The notes beneath the pieces were generated by a model. It saw nothing but the letters and a program-made list of their open reading frames with translations, had not been told where the DNA came from and made no database searches. A stretch of 59,525 bases of DNA from Thermincola carboxydiphila (lineage in GTDB: Bacteria > Bacillota > Thermincolia > Thermincolales > UBA2595). Made by a program: the position numbers and the translations under genes. Within the stretch, counting starts at the first letter, position 1. Each line of letters opens with the position of its first letter. The stretch is taken from the NCBI GenBank assembly GCA_016841045.1, contig JAENZX010000022.1, positions 1 to 59,525 of the forward strand, in the 5' to 3' direction. This document shows positions 32,688-45,808 of the stretch, piece by piece.

Positions 32688-32886
32688 CGGATGAAGGTTG
32701 TGGGAGAGTCCTTTTTTAGAAGGCGCCGAAGGAGTAAGGGGATAGTTGGCTGAACGAACCCCGAAACTCTCAGGCAAAAGTACTGCAGCCGGACGGATCT
32801 CTGGAGAGTTTCTAAGGTAACTTAGAACACCAAAGGGGAATAACTCCGTCAGGGAGTGAATCTCTCAGGTCGCAAGGACAGAGAAA
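32688..32886 (+). promoter_or_regulatory. Tandem glycine riboswitch 1
   Basis: Two adjacent glycine aptamers. The first has GGGAGAGTCC, GGCGCCGAAGGAG and CTCTCAGGCAAAAGTACTGCAG. The second has CTGGAGAG, ACACCAAAGGGG and CTCTCAGGTCGCAAGGACAGAG. It precedes gcvT and ends in a terminator. In known cases glycine binding opens expression of the cleavage system. Confidence 0.95.
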
Positions 32887-34575: not shown

Positions 34576-35931
34576 ATGAACTTTGTACCTCACACGGAAG
34601 ACGAACGCAGGGAAATGCTTAAGGCCATAGGGGTCGATTCGATTGAAGCCCTGTTTGCTGATATACCTGAAGGATTACGCCTCGGGCGGGATCTTGAAAT
34701 CCCCGGACCTCTGTCAGAGATGGAACTGACAAGGCATATGGATGAGTTGGGGAAAAAGAACGGCTCCCTCAATGAGTACATATCTTTTCTGGGAGCGGGG
34801 TCTTATGATCACTATATACCCAGTGTGATCAACCATATGCTGTTAAGGTCGGAGTTTTATACGGCATACACACCATATCAGCCCGAAATCAGCCAGGGCA
34901 CACTGATGTCAATATTCGAATACCAGACCATGATTTGTGAGCTGACAGGTATGGAAGTAGCCAATGCTTCTATGTATGACGGAGCATCAGCAATGGCAGA
35001 AGCGGCCTTTATGGCATGTGAGAGCAAGCGCCGCAAAAAGATAGTTGTTGCTGATACCGTGCATCCGGAGTATCGCGAAGTACTGCAGACATATGCCGGA
35101 CCCCTGGACATTGAAGTAGTGATAGCACCTTTCACTGATGGTATTACCGATACCGCTGCTTTAGCCGAATTAGTAGATGATAAGACTGCGGGAGTGATTA
35201 TCCAACAACCGAATTTCTTTGGCGGACTGGAAAAAGTCACTCAGATATCTGATTTAATCCATGAAAAAGGCGGCCTGTATATAGCTGTGGTCGACCCGAT
35301 ATCACTGGCTATTTTGAAGCCCCCTGGAGAATATGGGGCAGACATAGTGGTTGGCGAAGGACAGTCACTGGGTAATCCGGTAAGTTTTGGCGGCCCGCAG
35401 CTTGGCTTCTTTGCCTGTACCGGAAAATTCATGCGCAGGATGCCGGGCAGGGTAGTCGGGCAGACGGTTGATACCAGCGGGCAAAGGGCATTTGTCCTTA
35501 CACTTCAGGCCAGAGAACAGCATATCCGCAGAGAGAAAGCCACCTCAAACATCTGTTCCAATGAAGCCCTTTGTGCGCTGGCAGCCACCATTTACCTGAG
35601 TATGCTGGGTAAGAGCGGTCTGGCGGAAGTGGCCGGATTGTGTGTGCAAAAAGCCGCTTATCTGAAGGAAGAGCTGAAAAAAATAGGTGTTGCGCCGGCC
35701 TTTGAAGCGCCGACATTTAAAGAATTCGTTGTCAGGACCGGGCGCCCGGTAGAAGAGGTCAATCGCGAACTGTTACAGGAAAAAATAATCGGTGGGCTTG
35801 ACCTGGGAAGATTCTATCCTGACTTAAAAAATCACATGTTAATTTGTGTCACTGAAAAGCGAACCAGGGAAGAAATGGCCTCTCTTGTAAAAGCTATGGC
35901 AAAAATTGAAGGGAGGGGTTATAATGAGTAA
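34576..35931 (+). CDS. gcvPA: Glycine dehydrogenase (P-protein) subunit 1
   Basis: A 451-residue alpha subunit of the split P-protein, the glycine decarboxylase. The canonical motifs are intact: [25 protein letters not shown] (about 96-108), ELTGM, and [11 protein letters not shown] near residue 320. It begins two bases after gcvH and overlaps gcvPB by 8 bases. It pairs with GcvPB to form the PLP enzyme. This copy is the reference for judging the divergent paralogue at 42830. Confidence 0.95.
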
Positions 35932-37372
35932 ACGGCTGATTTTTGAAATGAGCAGACCTGGGCGCCGGGGTGTCAGCCTGCCGGAATCAGATGTACCCGA
36001 AACGGAGCTTTCAGCGCTGATTCCCCGGGAATACTTAAGGGATGAGGCGCCGTCGCTGCCTGAAGTAAGCGAGATAGATGTGGTAAGGCATTTCACAGAA
36101 CTGTCGACCCTCAATCACGGAGTTGATACAGGATTCTATCCCCTGGGTTCGTGTACCATGAAATATAACCCCAAGGTTAATGAGGACATGTCCAGGCTGC
36201 CTGCTTTTGCAGCTATCCACCCTTATCAGCCTGAGGAAACTGTTCAGGGCGCTCTGGAATTAATGTTCCTGACGGAAAAATACCTGGCGGAAATTGCCGG
36301 AATGTCAAAAGTAACCCTTCAGCCGGCGGCAGGAGCGCATGGTGAATACACAGGGATGGCAATCATCAATGCTTATCACCGCAGCCGGGGAGAAAACAGG
36401 ACCAAGGTAATTGTGCCTGATTCGGCTCATGGTACCAACCCTGCCACGGCCAATGTATGCGGGTTCAGGATAGTTCAGGTTAAATCCGACGAACGTGGCG
36501 GGGTTGACCTGGAATCACTGAGGGCTGAAATGGATGAGGAAGTCGCCGCATTAATGCTTACCAATCCCAATACGCTAGGGTTGTTTGATGAGAACATACA
36601 GGAGATTGCCAGGATTGTTCACGAAAAAGGCGGACTGCTTTATTATGACGGGGCCAATGCCAATGCAATCATGGGTATAGCACGTCCCGGGGACATGGGT
36701 TTTGATGTCATCCACTTTAATTTGCACAAGACATTTTCCACTCCACACGGTGGCGGCGGTCCGGGATCAGGACCGGTAGGGGTTAAGGATTTTCTGGAGC
36801 CCTTTTTGCCCAAACCTGTGATTGGGGTGAAAGAGGGCAGGTACTATCTGGACAATGACAGGCCCCAGTCCATAGGTAAGGTACACAGTTTTTACGGTAA
36901 CTTCGGAGTTGTGGTTAAGGCTTATGCATACATCAGGGCCCTGGGAGGAGAAGGTCTGAAGTATGTGACTGAGCATGCTGTGCTAAATGCAAACTACCTG
37001 ATGAAAAAGCTGAGGGAACGTTTCCATCTCGCTTATGACAGGATATGCAAACATGAATTTGTGCTTAATACAGCTAATCAGAAGCAATATGGAATACACA
37101 CCCTGGATATAGCCAAGCGACTCCTTGACTATGGATATCATCCACCGACCATTTATTTTCCATTGATTGTGGAAGAGGCAATGATGATAGAACCAACTGA
37201 AACAGAGAGCAAAGATACTCTGGATCAGTTTGTTGATGCAATGTTAAAGATTGCCGATGAAGCTGAGACAAATGCTGAATTAGTCAAAGAAGCGCCTCAC
37301 AGCACAGTTGTCGGCCGTCTGGATGAAACACTGGCTGCACGCCAGCCTGTGCTGAGATTTAAACCGGAATAG
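35924..37372 (+). CDS. gcvPB: Glycine dehydrogenase (P-protein) subunit 2
   Basis: The product has 482 residues from ATG 35924, behind GGGAGGGG. It is the PLP-binding subunit, with Lys269 in [20 protein letters not shown]. Other canonical motifs are [22 protein letters not shown] and [15 protein letters not shown]. With GcvPA it decarboxylates glycine and loads H-protein. It overlaps gcvPA by 8 bases (ATGAGTAA), so their synthesis is coupled. Confidence 0.95.
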
Positions 37373-41579: not shown

Positions 41580-41850
41580 ACGGATGAAGGCTGCGGGAGA
41601 GACCTTTTTTAAAAGGCGCCGAAGGAGCAAGGGGGGGTACAGCTAAACCGGCCCCGAAACTCTCAGGCAAAAGTACTGCAGCCGGACGGGACTCTGGAGA
41701 GTTTCTAAGTTCATGAACTTAGAACACCAAAGGGGATATCTTCTAAAGAGAAGTGAATCTCTCAGGTCATCAGGACAGAGAAAACCAGAGAATTTAGGAC
41801 AAGAGATTGACTTTTTTAGAAATAAATCTCTCAGGTCGTAAGGACAGAGT
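41580..41850 (+). promoter_or_regulatory. Tandem glycine riboswitch 2 with duplicated 3' half
   Basis: Two aptamers closely match riboswitch 1 (GGGAGAGACC, GGCGCCGAAGGAGCAAGG, CTCTCAGGCAAAAGTACTGCAG, then ACACCAAAGGGG and CTCTCAGGTC). The 3' part of the second aptamer occurs twice: CTCTCAGGTCATCAGGACAGAG at about 41759-41780 and CTCTCAGGTCGTAAGGACAGAG at 41828-41849. A hairpin (AGAGATT/AATCTCT) lies between them. No intact gene follows directly. Confidence 0.9.
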
Positions 41851-41887
41851 AAACATCCAATAGCGGTTGTTTACCCTGTCCTTTTTT
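41842..41887 (+). terminator. Expression-platform terminator of glycine riboswitch 2
   Basis: GGACAGAGTAAAC pairs with GTTTACCCTGTCC and is followed by TTTTTTG. Confidence 0.85.
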
Positions 41888-41923
41888 GTTAGCCGTGGAA
41901 AACATGTTGCTAAGGGAGTATGG

Positions 41924-41977
41924 ATGACTTTTTTAGAAGCAGTACGGGACAGGTTTGGGTGGACCCCCTGGGTTTAG
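41924..41977 (+). pseudogene. Seventeen-codon frame behind glycine riboswitch 2
   Basis: ATG 41924 follows TAAGGGAG. The frame MTFLEAVRDRFGWTPWV then stops. It has the look of a gene start cut short, replaced by riboswitch 3 thirty bases downstream. It may also be a leader peptide. A longer alternative frame from 41920 runs into the riboswitch and is not credible. Confidence 0.4.
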
Positions 41978-42007
41978 TGGCAGAAAACAGAATGAATTTA
42001 ATAAAGA

Positions 42008-42420
42008 CGGATGAAGGCTGCGGGAGAGACCTTTTTTATACTACAGGAAAGTATATCTTTTCCACATATACCCGCAAGGGGTACGCCGGATCCGTAGACC
42101 GCTAAAGCGGTAACGGCTCCGCAGTGTGGAAAAGGCTAAGGAATGTAGTACAGAGTGCGTAGCCCTTGAAGCGCAGCTTCTTAGGGATGCGGCCCAACCC
42201 TCGCGGGTGAAAGCGCGCGTATAGGGAACTGAAATATACGCGCTTTTCTAGAAAGGCGCCGAAGGAGCAAGAGGTGGTGTAGCTGGGACGACCTCGAAAC
42301 TTTCAGGCAAAAGAACTGCAGCCGGACGGGGCTCTGGAGAGTTTCTAAGTTCATAAACTTAGGACACCAAAGGTGTTAACTTCAAAGAAGAAGTGAATCT
42401 CTCAGGTTAAAGGACAGAGC
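42008..42420 (+). promoter_or_regulatory. Tandem glycine riboswitch 3, interrupted by an insertion
   Basis: The first aptamer opens as in riboswitch 2 (CGGATGAAGGCTGCGGGAGAGACC) and breaks in the small T-rich hairpin loop near 42037. It resumes at 42251 with AAGGCGCCGAAGGAGCAAG. The rest of aptamer 1 (TTTCAGGCAAAAGAACTGCAG) and aptamer 2 (ACACCAAAGG, CTCTCAGGTTAAAGGACAGAG) are complete. Because the insert sits in a stem-loop tip, ligand folding may be preserved. It controls the gcvPA/gcvPB paralogues. No separate promoter is evident, so it may depend on read-through of riboswitch 2. Confidence 0.88.
42038..42250 (+). other. ~210-nt structured insertion inside a glycine aptamer
   Basis: The insert is absent from the two sister riboswitches. 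It folds in nested fashion: TACTACA (42039-42045) with TGTAGTA, enclosing CTTTTCCACA with TGTGGAAAAG. Inside are a TACCC/GGGTA hairpin, a GCCG/CGGC stem and an ACCGC-TAAA-GCGGT hairpin. The 3' part has CCCT-GAAGC/GCTTC-AGGG and AAAGCGCG.TATA/TATACGCGCTTT. No open frame is supported. It could be a mobile structured RNA element, for example a relative of IS200/IS605-guide RNA or HEARO-like RNAs, or an unknown intron-like RNA. Identity is not established. Confidence 0.7.
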
Positions 42421-42461
42421 AAACAGCAAAATACTGTTTGCGCGCGTCCTTTTATTTTTTT
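42412..42461 (+). terminator. Expression-platform terminator of glycine riboswitch 3
   Basis: GGAC..CAAACAG pairs with CTGTTTG..GTCC and is followed by TTTTATTTTTTT. The middle of the stem is mismatched by a CGCGC stretch not seen in riboswitch 1. Confidence 0.75.
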
Positions 42462-42829
42462 CGGCGCGGCTTACGGATTCTTTACATAAATCGGTGAGAA
42501 GAAACGAGAATTATGTCACATTTTGTTTGTAAATCAGGGATATAGTGTTGTAAAATAGGAGTACTAACTGCTCTAATTATTGAAAGCAACTTTAAACACA
42601 CCCCAAATCACTTCAATATTCTTCAATAACTATATAAGGAGGTGAACTCTGCAAATCTTGCCGATATGACTTCTTCTGTCTCGGTGATTCATTCAGAAAA
42701 AACATTACGACGCCTGGGAAAGTCCTAACAAATGATGGGAGGTGGGAGCGAAAAAACTGTGATAAAAGTAGCAGCTTTCTAATTGGTTCACTATGTTTTA
42801 CTTTTAATTAATAAAAGGAGGAACGATAC
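42462..42829 (+). other. Long leader before the gcvPA paralogue
   Basis: Two ribosome-site-like AAGGAGGTGA and GGGAGGTGGG stretches (about 42641 and 42737) precede short frames. One, GTG near 42647 to a stop near 42731, is 27-28 codons (ANLADMTSSVSVIHSEKTLRRL in part); the other is under ten codons. They could be leader peptides or gene remnants. A TTGTAA/TAAAAT pair near 42527-42556 is a weak promoter candidate. The true ribosome site of the next gene is AAAGGAGG near 42815. Confidence 0.4.
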
Positions 42830-44227
42830 ATGAGCAAACCGGTCTATCCTTATATACCCAACTCCGTACCGGAACAAAAACAAAGACTGCTGAATGAAAT
42901 TGGTATTGACAGTGTTGAAGAGATTTTTAAGGAGATTCCTGACCACCTGCGGTATAAGGGGGAAATGAAACTTCCCGAGCCTTTTCTTTCCGAATACGAA
43001 CTGAGGAGACACGTAGAAGGTATACTTAACAAAAACAAGTCCTGTAAAGAATATACCAACTTCCTCGGTGCCGGAACATGGCAGCATTATGTCCCGTCCG
43101 TGGTAGATGAAATCATCACCCGTGATGAGTTCCTGACCGCATATGTGGTAGGAGACGCTCAGGGGGACCACGGAAAGTGGCAGGCCCTCTTTGAAAGTGC
43201 CAGTATGATAGGCGAAATGACTGGCTTTGAAGCGGTTAATAAACCGACTTATGACTGGGCAAATGCGATTGCCATTGCCTGCCGGATGGCTGCCCGGATG
43301 ACAGGCCGCCGGGAAATTCTTGTAGCCGGAAACATGAGTCCCCGGAGGCTGTCAGTTGTTGTGAACTATTGCAAACCCGAAATTAAAGTTGAGAAAGTAA
43401 AATATGACAAAGATACCGGCCTCATGGACCTTAATGATCTAAAAGCAAAAATTTCTTCTAATACTGCAGCTGTTTATTTTGAGAATCCGTCTTACCTGGG
43501 CTTCATTGAACTTCAGGCTGAAGAAATTGCTAAAATCGCCCATGATAACGGTGCAGAAGTCATCGCGGGTGTAGACCCCAGTTCCCTGGGTGTGCTGGCA
43601 GCCCCTGCTGATTACGGCGCTGACTTTGCTGTAGGTGATTACCAGCCGCTTGGTCTTCATATGCAGTGGGGCGGCGGGCTGGCCGGTTTTGTATGTACCC
43701 GTGACGAAGAGAAGTATGTTGCTGAGTATCCCGGCCTGCTGTATGGGATCACAACTTCTGTAAAAGAAGGGGAATACAGTTTCGGTGAAGTCTTCTATGA
43801 AAGAACTTCTTATGCATCAAGGGAAAAAGGCAAGGACTTTATCGGTACAACAACCGCATTGTGGGGTATTGCCGCAGGTGTCTATATGGCTCTGATGGGA
43901 CCCCAGGGTTTCAGGGACCTCGGTGAAGGCATTATGCAGCGTGTTAAGTATACCCAGGGCCTGCTTTCAAATATCAAGGGTGTAAAGGTTCCTGTTCTTA
44001 AATCACCCAGTTTTAAAGAGTTTATAGTTAACTTTGACGATACCGGCATGACAGTCGCTCAGATTAATAAAGCGTTACTGGAGCATAAGATTTTTGGCGG
44101 CCTGGACCTCAGCCAGGAGTTCCCCGAGTATGGACAGAGCGCATTGTACTGCATAACTGAAGTTCATACCAAGGAAGATCTCAAGAAACTGGCTCTGGCC
44201 TTGGATCAAGTTATCAAGGTACTATAA
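42830..44227 (+). CDS. Divergent P-protein-like subunit 1 paralogue
   Basis: A 465-residue homologue of GcvPA under glycine riboswitch control. Overall fold motifs remain (FLGAGTWQHYVPS, EMTGFE). Active-site signatures are changed: the canonical [13 protein letters not shown] reads TAYVVGDAQGDHG (103-115), and the ATSNIC(S/T)N motif reads DFIGTTTALWG. The beta-strand VDPxSL is kept. It pairs with the downstream 518-residue subunit. The changes suggest an altered substrate or role rather than simple duplication of glycine decarboxylase. Automatic annotation would call it GcvPA. Confidence 0.8.
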   Translation: MSKPVYPYIPNSVPEQKQRLLNEIGIDSVEEIFKEIPDHLRYKGEMKLPEPFLSEYELRRHVEGILNKNKSCKEYTNFLGAGTWQHYVPSVVDEIITRDEFLTAYVVGDAQGDHGKWQALFESASMIGEMTGFEAVNKPTYDWANAIAIACRMAARMTGRREILVAGNMSPRRLSVVVNYCKPEIKVEKVKYDKDTGLMDLNDLKAKISSNTAAVYFENPSYLGFIELQAEEIAKIAHDNGAEVIAGVDPSSLGVLAAPADYGADFAVGDYQPLGLHMQWGGGLAGFVCTRDEEKYVAEYPGLLYGITTSVKEGEYSFGEVFYERTSYASREKGKDFIGTTTALWGIAAGVYMALMGPQGFRDLGEGIMQRVKYTQGLLSNIKGVKVPVLKSPSFKEFIVNFDDTGMTVAQINKALLEHKIFGGLDLSQEFPEYGQSALYCITEVHTKEDLKKLALALDQVIKVL

Positions 44228-44251
44228 TTAAACAGAAAGGGTGAGAAATAT

Positions 44252-45808
44252 ATGGCTGTTGTAAGAATAAAGAAAGACTTTCATGAAGCCCGTTGGTGCG
44301 AGCCTATCATATATGAATTATCAACCCCTGGAATGAGAGGGATATTGGTCCCCATGCCTGATGATGAAATAAAAAGAGCTGCAGGTGACGTCATGTCCGA
44401 TATTCCTGCCGGTATGCGCAGGAAGGAGCTTAATCTCCCTGAAATGGACCAAAAACATGTTTTACAGCACTATGTCCGCCTGAGCCAGGAAACTTTGGGG
44501 GCAAACCTCACTAACGATATCAGTGAAGGTACCTGTACCATGAAATATAACCCGCGTGTTAATGAAGACCTGGCAGCCAATCCTAATTTTGCTGAGCTCC
44601 ATCCCTGTCAGGATGAGGATACTGTCCAGGGCATACTTGAAATCTATTACAAGTTCGAGCAGATGCTTAAGGAAATTTCCGGTATGGACCGGGTAACCTT
44701 CCAGCCCGGCGGAGGCAACCATGCTGTATATACAGCAGCAAGTATTGTCAGGGCTTACTGGGAGGCCAGGGGTGAACTGGACAAGAGAGATGAGATTATC
44801 ACTACCATCTACTCACATCCCTGTGATGCTGCTACTCCTGCTACTGCCGGTTTCAAAGTTATCACACTTTATCCTGATAAAGACGGCTTCCCTGATATTG
44901 AAGCATTGAAGGCTGCTGTTTCGGAAAGAACTGCTGCTATATTCATGACAAACCCCGAGGACATCGGGCTGTACAACCCCAGGGTTGACGAATTTGTTAA
45001 GATTGTCCACTCAGTCGGCGGTCTGTGCTTCTATGACCAGGCTAATGCCAATGCATTCCTGGGTGTTGCCAGGGCCAGAGAAGCCGGATTCGATATGTGC
45101 CACTTTAATGTCCATAAAACATTCGGTACACCGCACGGATCCAGCGGACCGGCTAACGGCGCCCTGTGTGTTAAGGAAGAACTGGCCAAGTTCCTGCCTG
45201 TACCTACAGTAGGATTTGACGGCAAAAAGTATTACCTGGATTATAACCATCCGGAAAGTTTCGGTATGGTAAGAGATTTCTGGGGTACTGCAGGGGTTAT
45301 TCTGAAGGCTTATGCCTGGACAATGAACCTGGGTGCCGACGGCTTACGGGAGTGTGCCGACATCTCTGTTCTTAACAACAACTATCTGGAGAAAAAACTG
45401 CTTACTATCCCCGGATTGTCAGAATGCTACCAGGGCAACGGCCACCGCAGGCTGGAGCAGGTACGTTACTCCTGGGAGAAACTCAAGGAAGATACCGGTG
45501 TGGGTACAACTGAAGTCAACTACCGTGCCGTAGATTATGGTATTCCACATTACTGGTTCAGCCACCATCCATGGGAGATCCCCGAACCGATGACTCTTGA
45601 GCCGTGTGAGTCTTACTCTGTGGACGACCTTGATGAATACTATGAAGTCCTCAAACAGATCAGTAAAGAGGCCTATGAAACTCCTGAGGTTGTGATGAAT
45701 GCACCTCATAAGGCTGCCGGTCATAAGAGAAATGATGAGGCAGCTCTGGATGATCCCAAGAAATGGGCTACTACCTGGAAGGCTTATCTCAGAAAGCATA
45801 GGAAGTAA
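44252..45808 (+). CDS. Divergent P-protein-like subunit 2 paralogue (PLP)
   Basis: A 518-residue homologue of GcvPB, about 36 residues longer. PLP Lys289 is conserved in HFNVHKTFGTPHGSSGPA, but the usual glycine-rich GGGGPGSG is SSGPANG. Canonical [11 protein letters not shown] reads [19 protein letters not shown] reads GGNHAVYTA, and [11 protein letters not shown] reads YSHPCDAATPATA. The extra length lies mainly in the C-terminal third (about 390-450). It is probably still a PLP decarboxylase working with an H-protein. Preceded by GAAAGGGTGAG. Confidence 0.82.
   Translation: MAVVRIKKDFHEARWCEPIIYELSTPGMRGILVPMPDDEIKRAAGDVMSDIPAGMRRKELNLPEMDQKHVLQHYVRLSQETLGANLTNDISEGTCTMKYNPRVNEDLAANPNFAELHPCQDEDTVQGILEIYYKFEQMLKEISGMDRVTFQPGGGNHAVYTAASIVRAYWEARGELDKRDEIITTIYSHPCDAATPATAGFKVITLYPDKDGFPDIEALKAAVSERTAAIFMTNPEDIGLYNPRVDEFVKIVHSVGGLCFYDQANANAFLGVARAREAGFDMCHFNVHKTFGTPHGSSGPANGALCVKEELAKFLPVPTVGFDGKKYYLDYNHPESFGMVRDFWGTAGVILKAYAWTMNLGADGLRECADISVLNNNYLEKKLLTIPGLSECYQGNGHRRLEQVRYSWEKLKEDTGVGTTEVNYRAVDYGIPHYWFSHHPWEIPEPMTLEPCESYSVDDLDEYYEVLKQISKEAYETPEVVMNAPHKAAGHKRNDEAALDDPKKWATTWKAYLRKHRK

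Follow-up and report, generated by a model that had tools for sequence, protein, structure and literature searches.

A small mobile element was found inside the aptamer of a tandem glycine riboswitch in Thermincola carboxydiphila. The insert, ~212 nt at positions 42040-42251 of the 59,525-nucleotide stretch of DNA analysed here (the window), occupies the T-rich P2 loop (TTTTTT) of the first aptamer, and related copies with conserved folding occur in other genomes of the same family, where relatives retain the corresponding sites empty. The insert is probably a non-autonomous, selfish, two-hairpin DNA element, MITE-like and belonging to the Thermincola family, which entered the P2 loop and is tolerated there as an extension of P2; its neutrality for the riboswitch is what we infer from predicted structures.

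The host genome (G000, Firmicutes, 4.16 Mb) belongs to a family that also includes Thermincola ferriacetica and HGW-Firmicutes-14. Three tandem glycine riboswitches are present in the window, at 32691, 41584 and 42002, and the third is the interrupted one. The first lies upstream of gcvT-gcvH-gcvPA-gcvPB, while the other two lie in series upstream of a second gcvPA-gcvPB pair, with gcvPA at 42830 and gcvPB at 44252 (gcvT and gcvH were named from their translations, and gcvPA and gcvPB of the second pair from NCBIfam equivalogs). The two gcvPA-gcvPB sets (34576-37372 and 42830-45808) are both downstream of glycine riboswitches. Positions 41584-42462 contain two complete tandem riboswitches before gcvPA, each followed by a terminator-like hairpin, a serial arrangement seen again in the relative G007 and, judged by the spacing of matches, in G001 and G005. 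The first serial riboswitch carries at 41767-41850 an extra stretch of ~70 nt that duplicates the 3' part of its aptamer 2 (AATCTCTCAGGTC..AGGACAGAG) and is absent from the G007 ortholog.

The interrupted riboswitch and its terminator-like hairpin (42002-42462, forward strand) were delimited by Rfam matches and by 90% identity to the uninterrupted G007 ortholog. An earlier note on this DNA had described the riboswitch as following its neighbour near 41580, breaking near 42037 and resuming at about 42251, and comparison bore this out: it parallels the 41584 riboswitch through the T-run at 42032-42037, the last bases of its 5' half being GAGAGACCTTTTTT, and the likeness restarts at 42252 (AAAGGCGCC). 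Comparison with the paralogs and the ortholog places the 5' strand of aptamer-1 P2 (CCTTT) and the T-run that served as insertion target at 42030-42037, and the 3' strand (AAAGG) at 42252-42256, both on the forward strand. P2 is of an ordinary length, ~14 nt, in both paralogs of the window (CCTTTTTTAAAAGG at 41602 and CCTTTTTTAGAAGG at 32709) and in the G007 ortholog (CCTTATTTTGAAGG), confirming the proposed insertion into the tip of an aptamer loop and disposing of the objection that the insert is a known longer P2 stem. With the element taken as ACTACAG...TTTTCTAG(N), the leftover P2 would read approximately CCTTTTTTATAAGG, 14 nt like the rest. Among the riboswitches examined, this is the only one that bears the insert. 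The Rfam model glycine-GGAnGA (RF03166) matched 42217-42421, spanning the 3' part of aptamer 1 and aptamer 2, with 58.6 bits, below its gathering score of 110 because the insert splits the riboswitch, and the Glycine model (RF00504) matched aptamer 2 (42331-42420) with 43.8 bits, above its cut-off of 32. The tandem aptamers that characterise a glycine riboswitch (RF00504 / RF03166) are therefore recovered by covariance-model matches.

In predicted ensembles with the insert, pairing of aptamer-1 P1 and P3 stays at 0.99 and pairing of P2 drops from 0.98-0.93 to 0.73-0.70. Since P1 and P3 are predicted to be unchanged, the insert can serve as a long P2 extension: in the RNA it would fold on itself, and the ligand-binding core could still form. 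The cell would tolerate the insert, perhaps owing to the preceding second riboswitch pair and the second gcvPA-gcvPB set.

A less likely reading, but one to be taken seriously, is that the insertion inactivated or altered the riboswitch, either through an early stop of transcription at the right hairpin of the element (TTTTC tail) or through a mutated aptamer 1 that no longer binds, leaving gcvPA-gcvPB lowered or uncontrolled. The right hairpin resembles a terminator, with a stem of -16.4 kcal/mol and a short T tail, so that a premature stop might be conceivable; against this, the tail is short, TTTTCTAG, and a consensus terminator scan did not pick out the hairpin. P3 and the terminator of the expression platform carry substitutions relative to the G007 ortholog. 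Aptamer 1 has CTTTCAGG in place of the normally conserved CTCTCAGG at 42302, and the terminator stem is predicted at -19.2 kcal/mol, compared with -22.6 and -23.9 kcal/mol in the paralogs; changes at conserved positions and a weaker terminator stem could fit decay instead of tolerance, and a loss could be covered by the second gcvPA-gcvPB set. However, the riboswitch flanks have kept their identity to the empty ortholog, and the score of aptamer 2 remains higher than the Rfam cut-off.

The element (ACTACAG...TTTTCTAG, 42040-42251, forward strand) is a full-length form, with a core and an inverted core, as defined by full-length copies in two relatives (G004 and G008, 92-95% identical to the window copy), a module map and empty sites; its approximate ends were placed by comparing other copies with their empty sites. 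All three pairs of nested complementary arms anticipated in the earlier note were located. The left hairpin (42039-42150, forward strand), supported by a consensus fold of nine copies, has an outer stem of TACTACA (42039-42045) and TGTAGTA (42144-42150) and an inner stem of CTTTTCCACA (42057-42066) and TGTGGAAAAG (42125-42134). At its tip lies a 56-nt core (42069-42124, forward strand), composed of a CCCGCAAGGGG hairpin and a second hairpin, which is supported by covariation and matched by covariance model R1 with 82.9 bits. A second, diverged core lies inverted between the two hairpins of the element (42155-42209, reverse strand; R1 59.1 bits, E 8.3e-10). The right hairpin (42210-42248, forward strand), defined by copy alignment and consensus fold, pairs AAAGCGCGCGTATA (42210-42223) with TATACGCGCTTT (42236-42247) in the terminator-like stem that precedes the T tail. 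Its conserved loop, GGGAACTGAAA (42224-42234), equals a stretch that probably belongs to the 5' portion of 23S rRNA in bacteria.

The insert contains no ORF of at least 60 aa, in agreement with the earlier reading of it as lacking an open frame. Its folding energy of -89.7 kcal/mol is below that of all 200 dinucleotide shuffles (mean -70.3, z -4.2). Among nine minimal copies of the element, 5 of 32 pairs are changed on both sides, for example TACTACA/TGTAGTA versus TACTTCA/TGAAGTA, and such compensatory changes are present in both hairpins. The conserved folding may serve single-stranded DNA or RNA, as the covariation is compatible with both.

A DNA search of the host genome and 60 relatives found copies of the element in 7 of the 61 genomes, all of them in the host family. 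The minimal form, ~102 bp, consists of TACTACAG, the left hairpin with tip CTTTTCCACAT|ATGTGGAAAAG, GTAGTACAG, the right hairpin AAAAGCGCGCnnATnGGGAACTGAAATATGCGCGCTTTT and CTAG. Minimal copies without a core (L029, L033, L034, L096, L097, L098, L101 and L106) are present in G001, G004 and G008. In longer copies the left hairpin bears the ~56-nt core at its tip, and the longest add the diverged inverted core between the hairpins; deletion forms include one in which the core is reduced to its first hairpin (L017) and others of 57 bp (L112) and 42 bp (L110). Six of nine family genomes had 4-12 copies each under a covariance model of the element (R2), some copies being counted twice. In a genome of another family (G068), the same architecture recurs with a different right stem and with the loop GGAACTGA kept. 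A separate palindrome-rich repeat of ~220 bp (in the flanks of L029, at L117 and L119-L138, and elsewhere), with ~10 to 30 listed matches in each of three family genomes, was also noted; one of its copies itself hosts a minimal element.

Empty sites were found in relatives for several copies, four of them aligning cleanly (L010/L149, L011/L155, L022/L146 and L029/L147). Filled sites read ...RT|ACTACAG...CTAGT|..., and the empty sites are the flanks joined, with no target duplication in any of the four; a TA duplication, considered as a candidate, is compatible with L022 and L029 and contradicted by L010 and L011. Together with the copies in other genomes, these sites substantiate the proposal of a mobile insert, and the dispersed copies and the covariation of the fold rule out random sequence. 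The left ends of the element sit in T-rich DNA: at 13 of 14 distinct left ends the eight bases preceding the element include five or more T, compared with 168 of 3000 background positions (5.6%), and 10 of the 14 follow a terminator-like stem, compared with 766 of 2000 T-rich controls (38%), both counts coming from a small sample of copies related to one another. The T-run of the P2 loop is accordingly an ordinary target for the element.

The ~56-nt core has a wider distribution than the element. In an alignment of 33 cores, 11 of 19 pairs show double changes and 92% of cells pair. The 71 doubly changed cells compare with 22 +/- 3 after shuffling and no more than 16 when partners are slid; kinship inflates these counts, and the slid-partner control speaks against kinship as their sole cause. 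The core has no entry in Rfam 15. Model R1 had matches in 14 of the 299 genomes scanned from the phylum, of which six do not belong to the host family. An exact 20-mer of the core was present in 59 stretches of public genomes, mostly from Thiobacillus, Hydrogenophilales, Gallionellaceae and relatives, with a few from Thermincola relatives. Across eleven betaproteobacterial or related genomes, R1 counted 2 to 140 copies per genome. In the 59 stretches, the core is a 54-57-nt unit that occurs singly or head-to-tail at the same period (L246, L277, L255 and L244). It lies within REP-like repeats (GAGCGGGCTTG|CCCGCGAT; L269 and L271), within GTTGGGCACGCTGCGCTTTG|CCCAACCTACG (L252 and L264) and within a CTAGCAGCCTGTCGGACTTTGG palindrome (L239, L254, L263 and L270). 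It also runs in frame through a PlsC-like ORF (L226 and L232; LHPQGVRRIRNAAEATTTP, repeated) and, likewise in frame, through an aminotransferase-like (L224) and an IS66-like (L248) ORF of betaproteobacterial MAGs, these ORF labels being assigned from motifs.

Complementary arms flank 8 of 28 cores in the betaproteobacterial set (2.5 with shuffled flanks) and 6 of 17 in the Firmicutes set (1.8 with shuffled flanks), counts that include a few entries representing one copy read in two registers. The exact core was absent from the viral contigs searched, and the plasmids searched gave no match; two gut contigs that lack annotation and are filed as phage contain it at ~81%. Six equal core matches in G122 were considered as rRNA operons and rejected, since Rfam found no rRNA there. 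At L185 (G087), the core (56-111) lies ~160 nt from an OLE RNA gene (268-883), and at L007 and L009 cores lie inside long palindromes whose ends read TATGACTRTTTACTCCG / CTCCGTAAACRGTCATACC and which form a further repeat family in the host genome. We tentatively propose that the core could be a distinct, undescribed, structured mobile repeat that crosses phyla, prefers hairpin tips and persists as a module that folds independently. It probably moves by a system other than that of the element, because its flanks and hosts differ. In the proposed sequence of events, the element would earlier have gained two of these smaller palindromic mobile cores, one at the left-hairpin tip and the other, in inverted orientation, between the hairpins; its entry into the T-rich loop of P2 in aptamer 1 would have followed.

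The distribution of the element and the core bears on the remaining explanations. Recruitment of a functional (sensing or regulatory) RNA domain to form a composite switch would agree with the strong covariation of the core and with the conserved loops CCCGCAAGGGG and GGGAACTGAAA. This explanation is improbable, as the element occupies many unrelated sites, mostly downstream of terminators, only one examined riboswitch has it, and the core is found within other repeats and, in frame, within protein genes; such a spread across unrelated sites, repeats and protein genes points to selfish DNA. It is more improbable still that the insert is what remains of an RNA-based mobile element, whether HEARO, a TnpB guide RNA or an intron of group I or II. 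Some group IIC introns insert beside terminator-like sites, and the insert is likewise structured, mobile and adjacent to a terminator-like site. Yet an Rfam scan of 41990-42450 at E<=10 gave no match for the insert and none to HEARO, omega RNA or group I or II introns, the loci of relatives gave none at gathering score, no known family for the insert emerged from the Rfam scans of the window and related loci, the insert has no gene and is too small, and the ~102-bp minimal copies have the same ends. Of the 'mobile structured RNA' suggested in the earlier note, mobility and structure stand, whereas an RNA nature outruns the data, the covariant folds being possible in single-stranded DNA too; the copies are better explained by a small non-autonomous DNA element than by a mobile RNA. 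Expansion of P2 in place can be dismissed almost entirely, for although P2 length is variable in the glycine riboswitch family in general, near-identical sequence stands at unrelated sites of other genomes and the orthologs are empty.

Like MITEs, the element identified here as selfish DNA is short, non-coding and dispersed, with empty sites; it lacks the terminal inverted repeats and target-site duplication of DDE-type MITEs, its ends sharing only ACTA...TAGT. Transposition by Y1 HUH enzymes of the IS200/IS605 type leaves two hairpins, no gene and no target duplication, with a one-sided target preference. Because the element combines these features, there is an even chance that it is moved by such a transposase acting on single-stranded DNA hairpins. 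It resembles PATEs and other non-autonomous IS200/IS605 relatives in its two terminal (or subterminal) hairpins, duplication-free insertion and short one-sided target, but differs in that no partner transposase with matching ends was found in the family genomes searched. Y1 transposase genes (PF01797) are present in five of seven family genomes searched; none in those five has ends like those of the element, which is absence of evidence only, and no autonomous TnpA relative with the same ends was found there.

Palindromic repeats in RNA genes are already known. Rickettsia palindromic elements (RPE) have also inserted into tmRNA and M1 RNA genes (PMC2229807). Like the core, they are short palindromic selfish repeats, found in frame in protein genes and also in RNAs; the likeness is one of behaviour, no sequence relation having been seen, and the core differs in crossing phyla, in its ~56-nt, two-hairpin form and in lying, here, within a second element that itself sits in a riboswitch. 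The pneumococcal repeats BOX, RUP and SPRITE share with the element a modular (boxA/B/C), structured and mutually nested organisation, and SPRITE is terminator-like. One BOX has been found between two T-box riboswitches, which still seem to regulate (PMC3049150), whereas the element lies within the aptamer itself; target duplication accompanies BOX and RUP, and the element shows none. The core shares high copy number, hairpins, inverted pairs and tandem copies with the RAYT-mobilised REP, BIME and REPIN sequences. It is longer, however, inserts into REP-like sequences (L269 and L271) and shows no GTAG or CGTC tag at the hairpin foot (cf. PMC3733652) in the core alignment. For riboswitches, a review of prokaryotic MITEs goes no further than naming the possibility (PMC10969869). 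Among the openly accessible papers searched, we found no report of a MITE inside a riboswitch aptamer and no paper on the core peptide HPQGVRRI. The core, being widely spread, merits a separate description.

The loops of riboswitches tend to be regarded as passive, variable regions; in this case a selfish repeat has joined an aptamer domain. Annotation tools overlook both the core and the interrupted aptamer 1. The case is datable, as an empty ortholog and empty paralogs exist, and toleration or use of the insert by the riboswitch is therefore directly testable. The covarying two-hairpin core occurs in both Firmicutes and betaproteobacteria, and the sequences it enters include RNA-coding, protein-coding and repeat DNA. 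If it does prefer hairpin tips, structured RNAs would be a natural landing zone for it.
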